Source: Devosia sp.
GTDB lineage: Bacteria > Pseudomonadota > Alphaproteobacteria > Rhizobiales > Devosiaceae
Assembly (NCBI GenBank): GCA_015657675.1
Contig: JACDQI010000119.1
Location: 1-35,153 of the forward strand
Direction: 5' to 3'
DNA length: 35,153 nucleotides
The position numbers were made by a program, and so were the translations under genes. Numbering within the stretch: the stretch's first letter is position 1; each line of letters starts with the position of its first letter. Shown piece by piece: positions 3,751-35,153 of this stretch. The notes beneath the pieces were generated by a model that had not been told where the DNA came from, made no database searches, and saw only the letters and a list, made by a program, of their open reading frames with translations.

Positions 3751-6018
3751 CTAGATAATGAGGCTTTGCCGGTCGGCCCAGTCGAGCAGCAGCTCGCGGA
3801 TGCCAACGCCGTTCGAGCCTTCGAGCAGGGCAGCCGAGACCGACTTGCGGATCGGCTCGAGTTCGAGCCCGAGGATCATTTCCTTGATCGGGCCGATCGA
3901 CGGCGGGCTCATCGAGAGCCGGGTCATGCCGATCGACATCAGCGCCAGCGCCTCGACCGTCTTGCCGGCCAGTTCGCCGCACATTGTAAGCGGCACGCCA
4001 TAGCGGCGGGCAGAATCGACAATGTGGCGCAGCGCCCTGAGGCGCGGCAGCGCGATCGGGTCATAGGCCTTGGCGACGCGCGGGTTGGCGCGGTCGGCGG
4101 CCGTCAGGAACATCACCAGGTCGTTCGAGCCGATGGAGACGAAATCCGCCTCCGGCAGCACCTGGTCGAGTTCCCACAGCAGCGAGGGCACCTCGATCAT
4201 CGCGCCCAGCTCCAGCCGCGACGGCAGCGGCCGGCCCTCGTGGCTCAGGCGTTCGAGCTCGCGATTGACCACCAGCCGCGTCTGCCGGAACTCCCAGGCA
4301 TCGGTGACCATCGGCACCAGGATTTTCATCGGCCCGCCATTGGCGGCCTGCAGCAGGGCGCGAATCTGGATGCGGAGCAGACCCGGCCGGTCGAGCGCCA
4401 GGCGCAGCGAGCGGAAGCCCATGGCCGGGTTTTCCTCGGCCTCGGCCCGCAGATAGGGGATTACCTTGTCACCACCAACGTCGAGCAGCCGGAAGACGAT
4501 CGGCCGGCCCGCGGCCAGACGGATCGCCTCCGAATAGAGTTCCACCTGCTCGTTGAGCCGGGGCAGCTTGGAGGCGATCATGAACTGCAGTTCAGTCCGG
4601 AACAGCCCGACCCCCGCCGCGCCCGTATCGTTGAGCATCGGCAGGTCGGCGACGAGGCCGGAATTGTGATAGAGCGTGATGTTGACGCCGTCGCGGGTGA
4701 TCGCTGGCCTGTCGCGCAGTTCGAGATAATGCGCTCGCCGCTTCGCCGTGACCCGCACCTTGTCGACATAGGTCTGTTCGACCTCGGACGTCGGGCGCAG
4801 ATAGACCGTCCCAGCCGGCCCATCGACGATGATGTCGTCGCCGGCTTCCGCCAGCGCCACGATGTTCTCGGCCTGGCCGACCGCCACCATGCCCAGCGAC
4901 TTGGCGACGATGGCGACATGCGCGGTCGAACCGCCCTCTTCGAGCACGATGGCCCGCAGGCGCGAGCGGTCGTATTCAAGGAGCTCCGCCGGCCCCATGT
5001 TGCGCGCTACCAGCACGGCATTCTCGGGCAATTCCTTCATGCCGATGCCCTTGCCGTCGCCGGTGAGCACCCGCAGCAGCCGATTGGCGAGGTCATCGAG
5101 ATCGTGCAGTCGGTCCTTGATATAGGGGTCGGTCGACCGCATCATCCGGGCGCGGGTATCGTTCTGCACCCGCTCGACCGCCGCTTCGGCAGTGAGGCCG
5201 TTCTCGATCGCCTCGCGCAGCCGGTCGGCCCAGCCGCGGTCATGCGCGAACATCCGGTAGCTCTCGAGGATTTCCCGGTGATCGGTGAGCGACTGCATGT
5301 CGCCATGGCTGAGCATGTCGTCGATCGAAAGCCGCATGGTGTCGAGCGCGGTTGCAAGCCGGTGCTGCTCGACCTCGGTATCTTCGGCGATGAAATTGGT
5401 GACCACCACACGCGGGTCGTGCAGCACCACCTGGCCGAGCGCGATTCCGTCGGTAAAGCCATTGCCCACGAAGGTGCGCGGGCGGCGCAGGTCGATATCC
5501 TGGCCCGGCTTGATCAGCGTATCGAAATCGGAGGTGGCGATCATTTCGGCGAGGATAGTCGCCGTGGTCAGCATCGCCTCGGTTTCGTCCTCGCCATAGA
5601 CGCGCCGCTCGGCATTCTGCACCACCAGCACGCCCAGCGTCTGGCCGGCGCGCAGCACTGGCACACCCAGAAAGGCGTTGTAGGGGTCTTCGCCCGTTTC
5701 CGGACGATAGGCGAACGAGGGGTGGGACGGGGCGTTTTCGAGGCTGAGCGGCTCGGCTTCGGCGGCAATGAGGCCGACAAGGCCCTCGCCCAGCCGCAGC
5801 GTCGTCATATGCACCGATTCGGCCTTGAGGCCGCGGGTAGCGAAGAGTTCGAGGGCGCCGTCGTCACGCAGCACGTAGAACGAGCAGACGTCCGCGTGCA
5901 TGTTCTCGGCGATCAGACCGACGATTTTGTTGAGGCGATCCTGCGCAGCCAGTGGCTCCGCCATGGTTTCGCGCAATTGCCGCAAGAGCACGCGCGGACC
6001 GCTGATCGCTGTCGCCAT
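3751..6018 (-). CDS. ptsP: Phosphoenolpyruvate--protein phosphotransferase PtsP (EI-Ntr)
   Basis: This is the first enzyme of the nitrogen-related phosphotransferase system. It takes phosphate from PEP and passes it to NPr, then to EIIA-Ntr. The 755-residue protein has an N-terminal GAF domain (about residues 20-165), which senses nitrogen status in this family. The PEP-utilising N domain follows, then the phosphohistidine segment [15 protein letters not shown] with the phosphorylated His at about 367. The C-terminal TIM-barrel domain shows GSNDLVMF and the catalytic Cys in TMCGELAG. All key residues look present. The ATG at 6018 lies 64 bases after the lysC stop, and the ptsP stop is 8 bases before prfA, so lysC-ptsP-prfA-prmC may be co-transcribed. 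Confidence 0.95.
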
Positions 6019-21816: not shown

Positions 21817-23745
21817 TCAGCGCCGCAGCGCTGATGCGACCGCATCCGCCAGTTCGCGCTGCGAGAACGGCTTGGAGAGAAGCGGCAGGTCCAGCGTGCT
21901 GCCGCCGGGCAGCTCGGCATAGCCGGTCGCGAGCAGCACGGGCAGGCCCGGCCAGCGTTCGTGAATGCTGGCGGCGAGCTGGCTGCCGGTCATGCCGGGC
22001 ATGGCGTGATCGGAGATCACCATGTCGAACGGCCCCGCCGTCTCCAGCGCCGAGAGCGCCTGCCGGCCATTGGAGGCTTCCACCACGAAATGCCCAAGAT
22101 CTTCGAGCATCATGCTCGTATTCATAAGCACCAGCGCATCGTCGTCGACAGCGAGGATAGTGAGCGGCCGGCTGGTCGCCTCGGGCGTCGCCGGCGTGAT
22201 CGAGGAGACACCGGTCAAAGCGTCATCGGCGCTCGGCAGCCAGAGCTCGGCCGTCGTCCCCCGCCCCCTGACGCTTTTCAGCACGAGCTTGCCGCCCGAT
22301 TGTGCGGCAAGGCCGTGCACCATCGGTAACCCGAGGCCCGACCCCTTGCCGACGCCCTTGGTGGTAAAGAACGGCTCGGCCGCCTTCGCCAAAGTCTCGT
22401 CGTCCATGCCCTCGCCCTCGTCGGTTACGGCGAGGCAGACATAGTCGCCGCGCTCGAGCCCCTGCACATTGGCATCGCTGAGGCTGTGGCGCGCCGCCCG
22501 GATGGTGATCAGCCCGCCTTCGGGCATGGCATCACGGGCGTTGAGGCAGAGATTGAGGATGGCGGTATCGAGCTGATTGGGGTCAGTGACCACGGCCAGC
22601 GCGCCGGGATCGAACTGCGCATCGAGCCGCACGGCCGGGCGCAACGACGGCTCAATCAGCGTGACGAGGTCCTGCACCAGCACCGGCACGTCGACCGCCT
22701 GCATCTTGAGCGGCTGCCGCCGCGCATAGGCCAGCAGCCTCTGCGTCAGCGTGGCACCGCGTTGCGCCCCGTGCTCGGCATTGTCGATGAGCCGGATGAT
22801 GCGCGGATCGTCCGGCAGGTGCTTGCGCACCAGTTCGAGGCTGGAAAGGATCGCGGTCAGCAGGTTGTTGAAATCGTGCGCAATGCCGCCAGTGAGCTGG
22901 CCGATGGCTTCGAGCTTTTGCGCCTGCAGCAACTGGTCATGCGCCTGTTCGAGCGACATCTGCGTCGCCCGTCGCTCGGTGATATCGCGGGTGACTTTGG
23001 CAAACCCGACGACGTCGCCGAAATCGTCGCGAATGGCATCGACGACAACGCTGGCCCAGAACCGGCTGCCATCCTTGCGGACGCGCCAGCCGTCGGTCTC
23101 GAAACGTCCCTCGCGGGCGGCCGTCTGCAGCGCCATCTGTGGCACCCCGGCCTGCTGGTCTTCCTCGGTGTAAAAGATGCTGAAGTGCTGCCCGACCGCC
23201 TCGTCCGGCCGGTAGAGCTTGATCCGCTCCGCGCCGGCATTCCAGCTCGACACCCGACCCTCCGCATCGAGCATGTAGATGGCATAGTCAGTGACGCTCT
23301 GTACCAGCAGCCGGAACTGCTCCTCGCTGCGCCGCAGCGCCTCGCGCTGTGCCCGTCGCTCGGTGAGGTCGCGGGTGATCTTGGCAAAGCCCAGCAGCTC
23401 ACCGGCGGGCGAGCGGATGGCGTCGATCACCACATGTGCCCAGAACTGCGAGCCGTCCTTGCGGACCCGCCAGCCCTCCTGCTCGAAGCGGCCTTCGTCG
23501 AGCGCTATCTGCAGCGCCCGTTCGGGCAGTCCGGCGACACGGTCGACTTCCGGATAAAAGCGGCTGAAGTGGGTACCCAGCACCTCGTGGGCTTCGTAGC
23601 CTTTGAAACGTCGCGCGCCAGGGTTCCAGCTCGCGACGTGACCGGTGGGGTCGAGCATGTAGATCGCGTAATCGGCAATCCCCTCGACCAGCAGCCTATA
23701 GCGGGCATCATCCGTCACCCCGGCCGCAATCCCATCACTTCCCAT
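21817..23745 (-). CDS. Hybrid sensor histidine kinase, PAS-PAS-HisKA-HATPase-REC
   Basis: A 642-residue soluble hybrid kinase without membrane spans. Two PAS domains (about 15-130 and 140-255) are near copies of one another; both contain GWRVRKDGSxFWAxVVxDAIR and a PAC-like GFAKxTRDxTERRA. The kinase core has the phospho-His at about 290 (GGIAHDFNNLLTAI), N box NLCLNARDAMPEGG, G1 DEGEGMDDE, PFFTTKGVGKGSGLGLPMV. The C-terminal receiver has the acidic pair VDDD, phospho-Asp at about 579 (VISDHAMPG) and Lys in LLSKPF. No other response regulator is adjacent on this strand. PAS sequence of this type often senses redox or light through bound cofactors, but no cofactor can be assigned. Confidence 0.93.
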   Translation of the reverse strand: MGSDGIAAGVTDDARYRLLVEGIADYAIYMLDPTGHVASWNPGARRFKGYEAHEVLGTHFSRFYPEVDRVAGLPERALQIALDEGRFEQEGWRVRKDGSQFWAHVVIDAIRSPAGELLGFAKITRDLTERRAQREALRRSEEQFRLLVQSVTDYAIYMLDAEGRVSSWNAGAERIKLYRPDEAVGQHFSIFYTEEDQQAGVPQMALQTAAREGRFETDGWRVRKDGSRFWASVVVDAIRDDFGDVVGFAKVTRDITERRATQMSLEQAHDQLLQAQKLEAIGQLTGGIAHDFNNLLTAILSSLELVRKHLPDDPRIIRLIDNAEHGAQRGATLTQRLLAYARRQPLKMQAVDVPVLVQDLVTLIEPSLRPAVRLDAQFDPGALAVVTDPNQLDTAILNLCLNARDAMPEGGLITIRAARHSLSDANVQGLERGDYVCLAVTDEGEGMDDETLAKAAEPFFTTKGVGKGSGLGLPMVHGLAAQSGGKLVLKSVRGRGTTAELWLPSADDALTGVSSITPATPEATSRPLTILAVDDDALVLMNTSMMLEDLGHFVVEASNGRQALSALETAGPFDMVISDHAMPGMTGSQLAASIHERWPGLPVLLATGYAELPGGSTLDLPLLSKPFSQRELADAVASALRR

Positions 23746-24072: not shown

Positions 24073-26124
24073 TTAGGCCAGCACCTTGGTCTTTTCCGCC
24101 GCCACCGCGGCCCCCGGCAGCTCGACTCGCAGGCTTGCGCCAGTACGCCGGGCCGACGACGCGCCCAGCATCCAGCCGTTGGCCTGGGCAATCTCATTGG
24201 CCACCGAAAGTCCGAGACCGCTGCCTTCGGCGGCGTCGAGGTCGCGCTCCAGGCGCTGGCTGCGGCCGAGCGCCTGCGCGAAGGCGGCGCCCGCAAGTCC
24301 AGGGCCACTGTCATGCACCTCGATGCGATGCCCGGAGCCCGATCGCCGCAGCCCGACCATCACCCGCCCCGAGGGCGTATACTTGATGGCATTGGAAACC
24401 AGGTTTGCCACCACCCGCATCAGCGGATAGGCCTCAACCGGCGCGTCCGGCGCGGCGAGTACCAGCTTGAGTGAGAGCCCCTTGGCCTGCGCCTCCGGCG
24501 CGAACATGTCGACGGCGGCCCGCAGCACGGCATGGAGGCCCGTGGCGTCGGCAGCCGGTGCTGCCGGCTCGGCCTCCGGCGCATCGAGACGCTCGGCGAC
24601 CAGTTTTTCCATGTAGGCAAGCGCCGATTCCACCTGCCGCACATCGTTGCCGCCCTCGTTCTGCGCACTGAACAGCTGCCGTAACGACAGCCGCAACGCA
24701 TGCATGGGCTGCCGCAGGTCGTGCACCGTATTCTGCACACCCTCCTCGCGCTGTTGCGCCAGGAGCTGTACCTGCGCATAGCGGTCCTCAAGGAGAGAGA
24801 GCCGGGTGCCGAGGGCAAGACTTGCCTGCGCCTGGGCCAGGTTTTCGGCCGCCGCCGCCTGCCGCGCCTGATTGTAGCGGTCGAACATGGCAACGCCCAT
24901 CAGCAAGGCATCCATCGCCAGTGCCAGTCGCACCGCGTCGAAGGGCGTAATCAGCTCGGTTGCCCAGCCAAAGGCAAACCGACCCGTAAACAGCGCAGCC
25001 GGGATCACGGCTGCACCCCAGGCGAGCAGGTAGAACCGCACCTCCTTGAATCGCGTCCGCGCCGCCACGATGGCGGAGGCAAACCAGGTGAGCGCGCAGA
25101 TCAGGATCATCACCACCAGGAATTGCTTGAGCAACTGTGGGTTGATCGCCCAGAGCACCGCGTCGACCACCAGAACCATGGCCATGGCCGAAAGGACGAT
25201 CCGGTGCATGACGGGGTGGTAGCGCCGTGTCTGCAGGAAGCAGACGGCAAACAGTCCGCCCGTCACCATCACGGCAGTGCCGGCCACCACTGAGGCCATC
25301 GAGTTGAAGGCGGGGAAGTTCGGCCAGAGAAACTGGAATGCAAAGCCATCGGAATGCAGCACATAGAGCAGCATGGCGCTCAGATACCCCGCATAGGCAG
25401 CAAAGATGATCTGCCGCAACGCAGCAAGGGCAAGCAGCGCCAGCGAAATCATCACCAGCATCATGCCGTAAAAGGCAAAAGCCTTGGCTTCAAACAGGCG
25501 CGCCTCGGCAACAAAGCTCGGCAAAGTCTCGATCGACATCGTCACGCGCGACGAGCCTTGGGAATAATAGGCCAGTACGAGCGTTGCCTCTGCCCCGGTG
25601 GCCAGCTGGAAATCAGCCACCATCTGCGGGAAATCCACCGGCCGGTCGCTGAATGGGCTGTCAGGGCCCAGATCCATCAGCGTGGTCACCTCTCCACTCG
25701 GATCGATCCGGTAGAGGGCGATCTGCTGGGTAAAGTTCGCCTGCACGAAGAAGCGCCACGTATCGGTCTGGCTGGCGTTCTGAAGGTCAACCCGCAGCCA
25801 GATCAGAGCCGGCGTATAGCCAAAATCGGGCACCAGACCGGGCAGCGGCTGGAGCTGCAGCTTGGAGCGATCGACGAAGTCGCTTACCTGCAGTTTCCAG
25901 TCGTGATCCAGGATGTATTCAAAATGCGGCCCAAGCGTGCTCATCTCTGCTGGCCCGTTCAGCGCCAGACGACCAGCTGAGGCGGAGAGGGATGGCGAGA
26001 TGGAGAGCATCGTGAGCAAGGCGACGACGAGCCAGACGCCCCAGAAACGGGACGAACCTACCCCGCCGCAACTCGACCAGCGAGCCCGGTGATGACCAAG
26101 CGGGTTGTGATCGCCGACGACCAT
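24073..26124 (-). CDS. 7TMR-DISM sensor histidine kinase
   Basis: A membrane sensor kinase of about 683 residues. After a signal-like segment (WGVWLVVALLTMLSISPSLSASA) there is a periplasmic 7TMR-DISM extracellular domain (about 55-205), with PALIWLRVDLQNASQTDTWRFFVQANF. Seven hydrophobic spans then run from AFAFYGMMLVMISLALLALAA to the span near AVRLALAMDALLMG. The cytoplasmic kinase has the phospho-His near 468 (TVHDLRQPMHALRLSL), N box NLVSNAIKYTPSG, G1 DSGPGL and G2 GSGLGLSVA. DISM periplasmic domains often bind carbohydrates. The start is uncertain: ATG 26124 overlaps the divergent response regulator by 33 bases; TTG 26019 or ATG 26010 would avoid this but shorten the signal segment. The likely partner is the divergent LuxR-type regulator. 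Confidence 0.9.
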   Translation of the reverse strand: MVVGDHNPLGHHRARWSSCGGVGSSRFWGVWLVVALLTMLSISPSLSASAGRLALNGPAEMSTLGPHFEYILDHDWKLQVSDFVDRSKLQLQPLPGLVPDFGYTPALIWLRVDLQNASQTDTWRFFVQANFTQQIALYRIDPSGEVTTLMDLGPDSPFSDRPVDFPQMVADFQLATGAEATLVLAYYSQGSSRVTMSIETLPSFVAEARLFEAKAFAFYGMMLVMISLALLALAALRQIIFAAYAGYLSAMLLYVLHSDGFAFQFLWPNFPAFNSMASVVAGTAVMVTGGLFAVCFLQTRRYHPVMHRIVLSAMAMVLVVDAVLWAINPQLLKQFLVVMILICALTWFASAIVAARTRFKEVRFYLLAWGAAVIPAALFTGRFAFGWATELITPFDAVRLALAMDALLMGVAMFDRYNQARQAAAAENLAQAQASLALGTRLSLLEDRYAQVQLLAQQREEGVQNTVHDLRQPMHALRLSLRQLFSAQNEGGNDVRQVESALAYMEKLVAERLDAPEAEPAAPAADATGLHAVLRAAVDMFAPEAQAKGLSLKLVLAAPDAPVEAYPLMRVVANLVSNAIKYTPSGRVMVGLRRSGSGHRIEVHDSGPGLAGAAFAQALGRSQRLERDLDAAEGSGLGLSVANEIAQANGWMLGASSARRTGASLRVELPGAAVAAEKTKVLA

Positions 26125-31725: not shown

Positions 31726-31977
31726 GGGCAACTGTGCAGAGGCAAGCAGCTAGTGCTGCATCGCACGGTCCTAGGGCACCTATCAATCACCTCCAATGCG
31801 CCGCTACCAACTAACAGGAACGCGGAAATGGGCTGTCGACGAAAGATTAACTGACAAATTGTAAAACTGGATCGGCACGCGTTCCCATACGATGCACGAC
31901 CAGTCAGCTGCGCATCTGGGTGATGGTTAGGGCCGATCTCAGAAGTGTCGGCGGACAGTTCAGGAAAGTTGGATTCC
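31726..31977. other. Intergenic region between secA terminator and the RsbQ-like gene
   Basis: About 250 bases, less GC-rich than the flanking genes. No gene is supported. It should hold the promoter of the RsbQ-PAS-GGDEF pair, but I found no convincing -35/-10 spacing. Short alternative starts upstream of 31978 (for example GTG at 31945) are possible. Confidence 0.45.
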
Positions 31978-32775
31978 ATGTTCGCCAACGCATTGAACCG
32001 AAACAACGTAGCCATCCGGGGGGACGGTGAGCACACTCTTGTGCTTGCGCATGGCTTCGGTTGTGACCAAAAGATGTGGCGGCGGCTCGAGCCGCATCTC
32101 GAAGGCTTCCGCCTCGTTCTCTTCGACTACACCGGCTGTGGAGGTTCTGACCTCTCCGCCTTTGATCCTGACCGGCATAGCCGACTGGAAGGCTTCGCCG
32201 AGGATTTGGGCGAGATTTGCGATGCGCTAGACCTGCGCGGTGCAACGCTCGTGGGCCATTCCGTAAGCGGTCTGATTGGCCTGATTGCCGCCAACGCTTC
32301 GCCGAAGATCTTCACGGATCTTGTATTGATTTGCCCCTCGCCCTGCTTTCTCAACCTACCCGGCTATGCTGGCGGGTTTGAGCGGAGCGACTTGGAGGAA
32401 CTCATTTCCCTGATGGACAGGAACTACATCGGTTGGACGCAACACCTTGCTCCACTGGTGAGCGGGCAGCCTGCGGATGGCGAGCTAACAGAAGAACTCA
32501 CGCGGAGTTTCTGTTCCACAGACCCGTTGACTGCCAAGACCTTCGCCGAAGCGACATTTCTGTCGGACCATCGCGACCTGCTTGGCCAAGCCGCTCACCC
32601 GGTTCTGGTTATTCAGAGCGAGCGCGACTCGCTCGCTGCGACTTCGGTGGGGCGGTACATGCACAACGCGTTCCCCGACAGCCGTTACGAGGTGGTCGAC
32701 GCGGACGGGCACTGCCTCCACATGACCCATCCCGCCCAGGTCGCAGGCCTTATCAGAGAATTCGTCGGTGCTTGA
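31978..32775 (+). CDS. RsbQ/KAI2-like alpha/beta hydrolase
   Basis: A 265-residue alpha/beta hydrolase close in layout to Bacillus RsbQ and plant KAI2/D14 receptors. The start region NNVAIRGDGEHTLVLAHGFGCDQKMW contains the RsbQ-typical HGFGCDQ. The catalytic triad is Ser95 (LVGHSVSG), Asp217 (IQSERDSLA) and His245 (DADGHCLHMTHP), nearly the numbering of KAI2. These proteins hydrolyse or bind a small hydrophobic ligand and relay its presence to a PAS partner. I chose the ATG at 31978, with AGGAAAG upstream, since the family starts just before this point. Its stop overlaps the start of the PAS-GGDEF gene by eight bases, a strong sign of a functional pair. Confidence 0.92.
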   Translation: MFANALNRNNVAIRGDGEHTLVLAHGFGCDQKMWRRLEPHLEGFRLVLFDYTGCGGSDLSAFDPDRHSRLEGFAEDLGEICDALDLRGATLVGHSVSGLIGLIAANASPKIFTDLVLICPSPCFLNLPGYAGGFERSDLEELISLMDRNYIGWTQHLAPLVSGQPADGELTEELTRSFCSTDPLTAKTFAEATFLSDHRDLLGQAAHPVLVIQSERDSLAATSVGRYMHNAFPDSRYEVVDADGHCLHMTHPAQVAGLIREFVGA

Positions 32776-33700
32776 TCCGCCAGCGGGCGACCCGTTCGGT
32801 ATTGACCGCTTTCCAGTTGGCTGCATCGTCACGGATCGCTTGCGTACTATCCGCTTCGCCAACGCTTATGCTGAGGCACAGTTGGGCCGTCCACGAGACG
32901 AGCTACTGGGGCTTAGCATCGAGGCGCTGTTGACCCCCGCATCTCGGATCTTCTGCGACAGCTACATCTATCCGATCCTACTCACCGAAGGACACTGCGA
33001 CGAGGTCGTGCTGACCGTCGCGACCGGGACCGGGACCCGCGCCCCGGCGGTCGTCAGCGCCCGCGTTTATGGCGACAATCCGGACTTCGTATTCTGGAGT
33101 TTGATGCGTGCGGACAAACGCGACAAGCTCCAGAGCGAGTTGGTAACTTCCCGCAACCTGCTACAGAAGCAGGCGCGTTCGCTGAAGGAACTGGCATCGC
33201 GGGACGACCTGACGGGGCTGATGAACCGGCGCGAGTTCACACGCATGGTCGCACCGCTGGGTTCGGCGGCAAATCGCTCGGGCGCATCAATGGCAATCTT
33301 GCTGCTCGACATCGACCGGTTCAAAGCAGTGAACGACACCTACGGGCACCAAGCCGGAGACGACCTGTTGCGGCAGCTTGGTGCGGTCTTCGCCCCACTG
33401 AAACGGTCGCATGAACTGGCCGCACGCTACGGAGGTGAAGAGTTCATCTTCGCCCTCGTTGTGGCGGAAGCTGAGGAGGTGCGTCCCTTCGCTCGCCGCC
33501 TTCACGAAGCGGCGCGAAGCGTGACCGGGCGCGGGGCGCCCGTGACCGTAAGCGTCGGCATTTACTGTTGTCCGCCGCATTCCGGACAAAACCTAGAGTA
33601 TGCCGTGAAGGCTGCGGACCGCGCCCTCTACGAGGCCAAAGCCCTTGGCCGCGACCGCACGATGATGGAAAGCGAAGGGAAGCTTGTGCCATTCGATTAG
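32768..33700 (+). CDS. PAS-GGDEF diguanylate cyclase
   Basis: A 310-residue soluble protein. A PAS domain spans about residues 10-115 (FPVGCIVTDRLRTIRFANAYAEAQLGRPRDELLGLSIEALL), a short coiled linker 116-142, then a GGDEF domain with SRDDLTGLMNRREF, LLLDIDRFKAVNDTYGHQAGDDLL and the active-site GGEEF (222-226). It should make cyclic-di-GMP. The inhibitory I-site RxxD reads RSHE (213-216), so product feedback may be weak. The GTG start at 32768 lies inside the RsbQ-like gene, indicating translational coupling. No EAL domain is present. The PAS domain is the expected docking partner of the RsbQ-like hydrolase. Confidence 0.93.
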   Translation: MLDPPAGDPFGIDRFPVGCIVTDRLRTIRFANAYAEAQLGRPRDELLGLSIEALLTPASRIFCDSYIYPILLTEGHCDEVVLTVATGTGTRAPAVVSARVYGDNPDFVFWSLMRADKRDKLQSELVTSRNLLQKQARSLKELASRDDLTGLMNRREFTRMVAPLGSAANRSGASMAILLLDIDRFKAVNDTYGHQAGDDLLRQLGAVFAPLKRSHELAARYGGEEFIFALVVAEAEEVRPFARRLHEAARSVTGRGAPVTVSVGIYCCPPHSGQNLEYAVKAADRALYEAKALGRDRTMMESEGKLVPFD

Positions 33701-33813: not shown

Positions 33814-33868
33814 TTCTTGACGTGGCGCGGGGATGCTACGGCCGCATCATTTGCAGTGGGCGCCGGAA

Positions 33869-34747
33869 ATGTTGCTGAGATTACTTGTCATCCTCGCGAC
33901 TCTGCTCGGCTTTGCCGCTCCGGCATGGGCCGAGGACTGGATCGCTGCCAAACTGCGCGGCATGGCCGAAGTGCAGATCGAGGGCGTCTGGACGCCACTG
34001 GCACGCGGCGACGCCGTCGCGGATCAACAGCTGGTCCGTACCCTGGGCGACAGCCGGCTTGAACTCTCCCGCGGCGCCGATGTCATTGCGCTCGGACCCC
34101 ATACACAGGTGCGCATCGAAGACGACGCCGCCACCCGCTACACGCTGGTGCGCCAGGATTTCGGCACGGTCGAGGTCGAGGCCGAGGTGCGCGACACCAA
34201 GCACCTGGAAGTGCGGACAAAGTTCCTCGCCGCCGTGGTCAAGGGCACACACTTCATCGTCACTGCCGACGACACCGGCGCTGCCGTGGTGGTGACCCAC
34301 GGGCTCGTGGCCGTGCAGTCGCTGAGCAACAACTACTCGGCTGACATTCCGGCCGGCAATTCCGCTCGCGTTGCCGCGCTCTCGGGGCAGTTGGAACTCG
34401 CAGGGGCAACGCCGCTGCCGGTCGTGCGCGATCCCGTCGGCAATCCGGTGCTGCCAACCCTTCCAGCGGCAGCGTCTGCCCCCTCGGCGACTGCGCCGGC
34501 GCCCACTGCAGCCACCGGAGGCGTAACGCTGCCAGCCGCCGGTTCCAACCAGCCGGGCCAGACGACCAAGACCGCCGGTCTTGGCCTTGCCGTCAGCATG
34601 CAACTGCCCAACGCCGAGGTGGAAACGACCGCCGGCTCAGGCGAGATCGATCTGGCGACCACTGCCCTGGGCGTGGCGATCGGCATTGCCATCGGGGCGC
34701 TTGCCCTGCTGATGCGCCGCGTTTTTTTCGTAAGGGCCGCGCCCTAG
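33869..34747 (+). CDS. FecR domain-containing membrane-anchored protein
   Basis: A 292-residue envelope protein. The signal peptide is MLLRLLVILATLLGFAAPAWA. The FecR domain (about 25-165) shows WTPLARGDAVADQQLVRTLGDSRLELSRGADVIALGPHTQVRI and VEAEVRDTKHLEVRTKFLAAVVKGTHFIV, the pattern of FecR proteins that act in the envelope outside sigma/anti-sigma systems. A Pro/Ala-rich linker (TLPAAASAPSATAPAPTAATGG) leads to a C-terminal span LGVAIGIAIGALALLMRRVFF. Such proteins are thought to bind or scaffold in the periplasm. I chose the ATG at 33869; an in-frame ATG at 33833 would add 12 residues before the signal peptide. Its stop overlaps that of the convergent gene in a CTAG. Confidence 0.88.
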   Translation: MLLRLLVILATLLGFAAPAWAEDWIAAKLRGMAEVQIEGVWTPLARGDAVADQQLVRTLGDSRLELSRGADVIALGPHTQVRIEDDAATRYTLVRQDFGTVEVEAEVRDTKHLEVRTKFLAAVVKGTHFIVTADDTGAAVVVTHGLVAVQSLSNNYSADIPAGNSARVAALSGQLELAGATPLPVVRDPVGNPVLPTLPAAASAPSATAPAPTAATGGVTLPAAGSNQPGQTTKTAGLGLAVSMQLPNAEVETTAGSGEIDLATTALGVAIGIAIGALALLMRRVFFVRAAP

Positions 34748-35153
34748 CTCCGGCAGTCCACCCGCAGCTCGGCAAAGCCGGCTGCATCGGAGGAAAGCAG
34801 GCTGGCCGTACAGCCACCGCCAGGCAGCGGCGCCGGCGTTCCCATAACCAGTGTCACGCCATTATCGAGCGCTGTCATGTCAGCCGAAATGGCGCTGGCG
34901 GTCACCACGATGGTGGACTGGCAGATCGGGAAGCTGTCGCCCACCGTGACCATGAACCGCGTCCCCTGCGGGATGCAGTCACTGACCGGCAGGCTGGGAT
35001 CGATCGGCGCCGTGCTGGTCGCCGGAGCGACGGTCGTCGCGGCAGCAACGCCGCCGGCAGCCTGCTCGAGTTTGACCAACCTGTCCTGCAGCGCCAGCAG
35101 CGCCTCGGCAGTGCCGTCGCTGCCGCCCGCCTCGCCAACCGCATCGAGCCGGG
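34744..35153 (-). CDS. Unknown protein, C-terminal part (partial)
   Basis: This minus-strand frame is open to the right edge of the window, so the 5' end is missing; 136 residues are visible. The visible part begins with a helical stretch RLDAVGEAGGSDGTAEALLALQDRLVKLEQAAGG that could be a coiled coil. A Ala/Thr/Pro-rich linker and a Cys-containing C-terminal domain (SDCIPQGTRFMVTVGDSFPICQSTIVV, ending GGGCTASLLSSDAAGFAELRVDCRS) follow. Four cysteines in the last part suggest disulfides and a periplasmic location. I do not recognise the family. It is convergent with the FecR-domain gene, whose stop it overlaps. Confidence 0.75.
   Translation of the reverse strand, partial: RLDAVGEAGGSDGTAEALLALQDRLVKLEQAAGGVAAATTVAPATSTAPIDPSLPVSDCIPQGTRFMVTVGDSFPICQSTIVVTASAISADMTALDNGVTLVMGTPAPLPGGGCTASLLSSDAAGFAELRVDCRS

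Follow-up and report, generated by a model that had tools for sequence, protein, structure and literature searches.

Why does the gene of an alpha/beta hydrolase run into that of a PAS-GGDEF protein in this Devosia contig (the window, the whole stretch of 35,153 nucleotides analysed here); is the hydrolase a metabolic enzyme, or the sensing half of a signaling pair that controls cyclic-di-GMP? Judged by its sequence, the pair very probably acts in the cytoplasm as a sensing module of the RsbQ-PAS kind, whose output is a diguanylate cyclase (Table 1). The hydrolase frame runs from ATG at 31978 to TGA at 32773-32775, and is open from a GTG at 31945, a possible upstream start; its stop codon falls within the beginning of the PAS-GGDEF gene, as the preliminary description of this locus had noted, so that the two genes, read in different frames, have 8 bp in common. 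The GTG at 32768 is the first ATG, GTG or TTG of the PAS-GGDEF frame, and the next start lies 64 bp past the hydrolase stop; since starting there would truncate the PAS domain, the overlap is the sole reading that leaves this domain intact. Of the earlier phrase "translationally fused in control", the overlap stands and the fusion does not, the genes being two separate frames; the overlap points to translational coupling. The catalytic triad lies in the contexts GHSVSG (S95), SERDSL (D217) and GHCLHM (H245), and the motif HGFGCDQ occupies residues 25-31, both as previously read. Pfam matches were obtained to Abhydrolase_1 (7.8e-23), GGDEF (1.1e-39) and PAS (1.1e-5; residues 12-103); PAS is the most N-terminal domain of the cyclase, with the RsbQ homolog directly upstream, the arrangement by which RsbQ-PAS modules are recognized, and the active motif of the cyclase, GGEEF, is intact (pattern GG[DE]EF).

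Table 1. Features of the hydrolase/PAS-GGDEF gene pair, in window coordinates.
Feature	Position	Strand	Details
RsbQ-type alpha/beta hydrolase	31978..32775	+	265 aa counted from ATG; triad S95-D217-H245
Overlap, hydrolase 3' end / PAS-GGDEF GTG start	32768..32775	+	8 bp
PAS-linker-GGDEF diguanylate cyclase (predicted)	32768..33700	+	310 aa
RsbP-type PAS domain	32798..33121	+	About residues 11-118; Falpha segment RIFCDSYIYP, residues 60-69; no DIT motif
Helical linker, PAS to GGDEF	33122..33205	+	About residues 119-146; from motif spacing
GGDEF domain	33194..33658	+	GGEEF residues 222-226; I-site position RSHE, residues 213-216

In a search of solved structures, the window hydrolase scored highest with Olei00960 (PDB 3qvm; 305 bits), followed by Bacillus subtilis RsbQ (262 bits) and the plant proteins KAI2 and D14 (about 140-180 bits), which have family and triad in common with it; the next score fell to 47 bits, all among the best 60 of 165 matches. 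Olei00960, presumably from Oleispira antarctica, shares Cys119 with the window hydrolase. NCBIfam gave weak matches to many alpha/beta hydrolase models, none at its cut-off and all far below (25 of 27 matches). A 57-row tree combined the related loci with RsbQ, two plant KAI2 chains, Olei00960, and ordinary hydrolases of the window's genome; 52 family rows formed one block that excluded these ordinary hydrolases (support 85/87, the bootstrap not being settled), and the five rows outside it, representing four ordinary hydrolases (two rows came from one ORF), had very long branches. Within the block, the window hydrolase grouped with Devosia (99/98), and Olei00960 with Paraglaciecola members of the window's branch (99/95 with L023); the order of the plant chains and the window's branch was not separated by this tree, its bootstrap not being settled. 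All 52 family rows keep S95 and D217, and 51 of them keep H245, the remaining row ending at a contig edge. By score gap and tree, the hydrolase is a member of the RsbQ/KAI2/D14 family, as had been proposed, and does not group with the ordinary hydrolases of its genome; plant hormone receptors and RsbQ-PAS modules have a common ancestry. The partners of KAI2 and D14 in plants are an F-box protein and SMXL repressors, not PAS proteins.

Conservation of the pair, on which the preliminary description had staked its reading, was found both among related loci and at the level of the order. Genome contigs yielded 44 loci, one of which (L050, 24% identity) was removed as outside the family; in 41 of the remaining 43, a PAS protein adjoins the hydrolase, downstream in 29 loci (one of them, L027, counted by a PAS motif 24 bp beyond the stop) and upstream in 12. 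The exceptions were L041, with a GGDEF/EAL-type neighbor in which PAS was not detected, and L049 from Vreelandella massiliensis (hydrolase at 5001-5783), with no PAS gene adjacent within the scanned stretch; the upstream neighbor in L049 is another ORF of 356 aa, and its hydrolase has Ala at position 119. The 45 partner proteins that were scanned (from the window, L051, L052, L053, and 41 of the 43 loci) contained the Pfam domains GGDEF (34), EAL (13), HATPase_c (8), and SpoIIE (2). In a sample of the order, a hydrolase match at 1e-60 occurred in 18 of 297 genomes, the window's own included; besides the window, PAS was adjacent in 16 of 18 loci, the exceptions (L120 and L122) being partial matches in one genome. 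A start that allows the 8-bp overlap, for which a genome survey had been suggested, recurs in 13 of the 46 tabulated loci, window included; given this recurrence and the adjacency in 41 of 43 related loci, the overlap is not due to chance. Three of 18 congeners have a 44%-identical hydrolase, and in each of them the PAS protein encoded next, downstream, bears kinase-like motifs. Their search frames of 649-667 aa suggested a hydrolase-PAS fusion, which was rejected: the two genes (L052:1495-3420, L053:1492-3405, and L054) share one frame but are separate ORFs, with TGA and one codon between them.

The RsbQ-PAS module was described by Nadezhdin, Brody and Price (2011; PMC3183031), with a diguanylate cyclase as one of three outputs; the preliminary description had correctly pointed to this bipartite module with varied outputs from the Price laboratory, and the window pair is a new example of its cyclase form. 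The directly upstream hydrolase, N-terminal RsbP-type PAS domain, linker, and GGDEF domain are shared with the 2011 modules, as are the retention of key Falpha residues and the absence of a DIT motif; the window PAS domain ends FVFWSLMRADKR. The second hydrophobic position of the hPhG motif is Val17 in the window (FPVG), in contrast to Cys in 80% of the class, a majority but not a universal feature (PMC3183031). Compared with B. subtilis RsbQ/RsbP, the window pair has the same hydrolase family (262 bits), the same order of hydrolase and PAS, and the same PAS residues; it differs in its output, a cyclase instead of the PPM phosphatase of RsbP, and in Cys119, which is Gly in RsbQ.

The PAS domain found no match among solved structures by sequence; it was mapped to RsbP numbering by residue spacing from the Falpha segment and by alignment with an Oceanobacillus relative (L038). 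Window residues L55, F62, C63, Y66, E79, and P93 are identical to RsbP L48, F55, C56, Y59, E72, and P86. In RsbP, the substitutions L48A, F55A, Y59A, and E72A gave null phenotypes and P86A a weak response, and F55A and Y59A abolished RsbQ binding in the yeast two-hybrid assay; as a caution given in the same paper, lower protein levels may account for part of the L48A and Y59A effects (PMC3183031). The window differs by Val17, Ile20, and Arg60 at RsbP positions C10, L13, and Q53, where substitutions, like those at C56, had modest effects (PMC3183031). A coiled-coil linker leads to the output domain in 36 of 45 modules (PMC3183031), and a complex of two RsbP with two RsbQ has been modeled by AlphaFold2, in a paper that cites the 2011 study for kinase and cyclase outputs (PMC12143880); by analogy with both sources, the PAS-GGDEF linker of the window may be a coiled coil. 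From the Falpha Pro to the DxLTG motif, the window counts 76 residues; among the 22 other members of its branch (see below), the spacing was 76 in 8, 73-75 in 10, without value in three, and 139 in L008, where a later motif was matched, with the caveat that PAS-loop insertions blur such spacings.

Hydrolase and PAS mirror each other phylogenetically, as the co-evolution check suggested in the preliminary description had envisaged: tree distances correlated over 45 pairs with r = 0.843 (0 of 1000 permutations reached this value; species descent was not controlled for), and the hydrolase and PAS trees contained an identical 23|22 split with supports of 0.997 and 0.956. Rows dropped were L027, L049, and L054 from alignment A1, and L027, L041, and L049 from the 45 pairs. 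The 23-member branch comprises the window, L007, L008, L009, L051, and 18 loci that are gammaproteobacterial by record title, among them Alteromonas gracilis (L010); the 2011 study also included one A. macleodii module lying above its cut-off (PMC3183031), and this module may belong to the same branch. GGDEF-type outputs were found in 22 of the 23 members, as 10 cyclases with GGEEF and 12 GGDEF-EAL proteins; the remaining member, L048, is kinase-like. The 12 GGDEF-EAL members (L013, L014, L015, L017-L022, L024, L032, and L033, from Halomonas, Vreelandella, and Marinobacter) have the gene order reversed: a PAS-GGDEF-EAL protein of 575-590 aa is encoded first, its frame stopping 20-65 bp short of the matched hydrolase region; the EAL motif is present in 11 of these 12 partners, and the 13 Pfam EAL matches fit the 12 together with L041. 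The GGDEF motif of one reversed-order partner (L020:3215-4951) is degenerate, reading GADEF. Since the search of 2011, as described in PMC3183031, looked for pairs with the hydrolase upstream, the reversed gene order would have been invisible to it.

The split also marks the hydrolase itself. Every one of the 23 branch members has Cys at residue 119 (window 32332-32334), as does Olei00960. Of the 25 other bacterial loci, 22 have Gly there, while L039 has Cys, L046 Thr, and L049 Ala; the two plant chains have Ala and Ser. In RsbQ, the carbonyl of position 119 contacts the catalytic His (PMC3548789); a residue beside the catalytic His goes with the PAS type. Of the side results, the most interesting are the Cys119 signature and the reversed-order sister group, a cyclase-phosphodiesterase form seen in Marinobacter and in relatives of Halomonas; both provide handles on how hydrolase and PAS are matched.

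The canonical RxxD I-site is absent from the window cyclase, as the preliminary description had stated. Glu replaces the I-site Asp in the window (RSHE) and in four close relatives, L007 (GSNE), L008 (RLHE), L009 (RTHE), and L051 (RLHE), whereas the five other cyclase-only branch members keep RxxD and the 12 GGDEF-EAL proteins keep the I-site Asp. In a survey of the window's genome, 37 GGDEF stretches gave 30 loci read by motif, of which 24 were readable and six unreadable or spurious matches, two neighboring pairs of loci showing each other's motifs; RxxD was present in 10 of the 24 readable loci and missing from 14, the window among them. Because 14 of 24 loci lack RxxD, no special meaning is claimed for the change: a feedback-free cyclase as a special feature of this locus was rejected, and the possible lack of product inhibition, raised earlier on the basis of RSHE, amounts to a guess.

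In the reading preferred here, the catalytic pocket of the hydrolase would accept a small molecule, an ester or a lactone being probable, and the hydrolase would touch the Falpha helix of the PAS domain in the cyclase dimer; ligand binding or turnover would alter this contact, and the change, relayed by the helical linker, would reach the GGDEF domains and raise or lower cyclic-di-GMP. Direct hydrolase-PAS contact, the need for the triad, and signal transfer through the linker are proposed by analogy with Bacillus RsbQ/RsbP; for the contact, the mirrored trees count at most as indirect support. A variant of the same module, possible but less probable, makes the hydrolase an enzyme that hands a small product to the PAS pocket, with PAS as the sensor (Model 1 of PMC3183031); the intact triad of the window hydrolase and the dependence of Bacillus signaling on the triad (PMC3183031) are compatible with it, but a ligand or cofactor of RsbP-PAS had not been found as of 2011, according to the same paper, and the plant relatives act as receptors, as a review also states. 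The natural ligand could be assayed conveniently with a compact pair of this kind, whose cyclase output would give a measurable product; as of 2011, Bacillus was the sole case with a known target (PMC3183031).

Whether the signal could be a karrikin- or strigolactone-like butenolide, which would link plant or smoke chemistry to cyclic-di-GMP, is a separate matter, and such a ligand appears unlikely. It would suit a hydrolase of the RsbQ/KAI2/D14 family, and butenolides are reportedly perceived by B. subtilis RsbQ (Melville et al. 2024), the sole precedent; yet the window sequence itself shows no sign of such a ligand, and its Cys119 contrasts with Ala or Ser in the two aligned plant KAI2 chains. 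The window hydrolase also has Leu at positions 157 and 174, which we take to line the pocket, against Phe in both plant chains; RsbQ has Phe157 and Leu174. By their titles, the nearest relatives come from a horse-associated-sounding Devosia species, a metagenome of a deep cast at 400 m, and a rectum metagenome of dairy cattle, and none from plants. A bolder scenario would combine these elements into a horizontally spreading, cyclic-di-GMP-specialized RsbQ-PAS branch, in which a Cys119 hydrolase and PAS co-evolve whichever gene comes first, the output being a cyclase or a cyclase-phosphodiesterase; because the alphaproteobacterial cyclases have lost the canonical I-site, a receptor-like hydrolase with a reshaped active site would set cyclic-di-GMP in answer to a lactone or butenolide, free of product feedback. 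Taken as a whole, this scenario is improbable. That the hydrolase is a metabolic esterase sharing an operon with an unrelated cyclase is highly improbable: the weak NCBIfam matches and the L049 hydrolase without a PAS partner would fit, but the pairing across phyla in either gene order, the co-inherited PAS type, and the drop from the RsbQ, KAI2, and D14 scores to the next one (47 bits, among the best 60 of 165 matches) argue against it.

How the RsbQ-PAS pair came to its present place can be approached from its composition and neighbors. The two genes of the pair have a third-position GC of 0.69 and 0.72, compared to 0.86 in argJ, 0.87 in the gene from 29232, which we take to be secA, and 0.78 in the next gene (fecR-like). 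Identity was highest with a Devosia contig (86%), followed by two assemblies from metagenomes, with the titles Alphaproteobacteria and Loktanella (73%), and by a plasmid of Paracoccus (70%), and in the order sample it exceeded 48% nowhere but in the window's own genome; this spread of relatives, the low third-position GC, and the identities of at most 48% elsewhere in the order suggest that the pair was acquired by horizontal transfer. The pair of Paracoccus sp. Arc7-R13 (EOJ32_RS17590/RS17595; 70% and 53% identity) resembles that of the window in both genes and in the 8-bp overlap; unlike the window pair, it is carried by a mobilizable plasmid and flanked by IS66 genes, at about 1 kb in front and 4 kb behind. 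A secA match was found in 16 of 18 congeners, and the module was absent from the secA flank in all 11 congener loci examined; in two of these 11, about 0.9-1.1 kb separate secA from a relative of the window gene at 34744-35151, compared to 3.1 kb in the window, which is at most suggestive of an insertion site of the module beside secA. The gene downstream of the module (33833-34747) encodes a FecR-domain protein with matches in 8 of 18 congeners; in all six congeners that have both, the FecR match and secA are on different contigs. Two further signaling proteins are encoded on the minus strand of the window, a PAS-PAS-kinase-receiver hybrid (21817-23745) and a 7TMR-DISM protein that also has a kinase ATPase domain (24073-26124).
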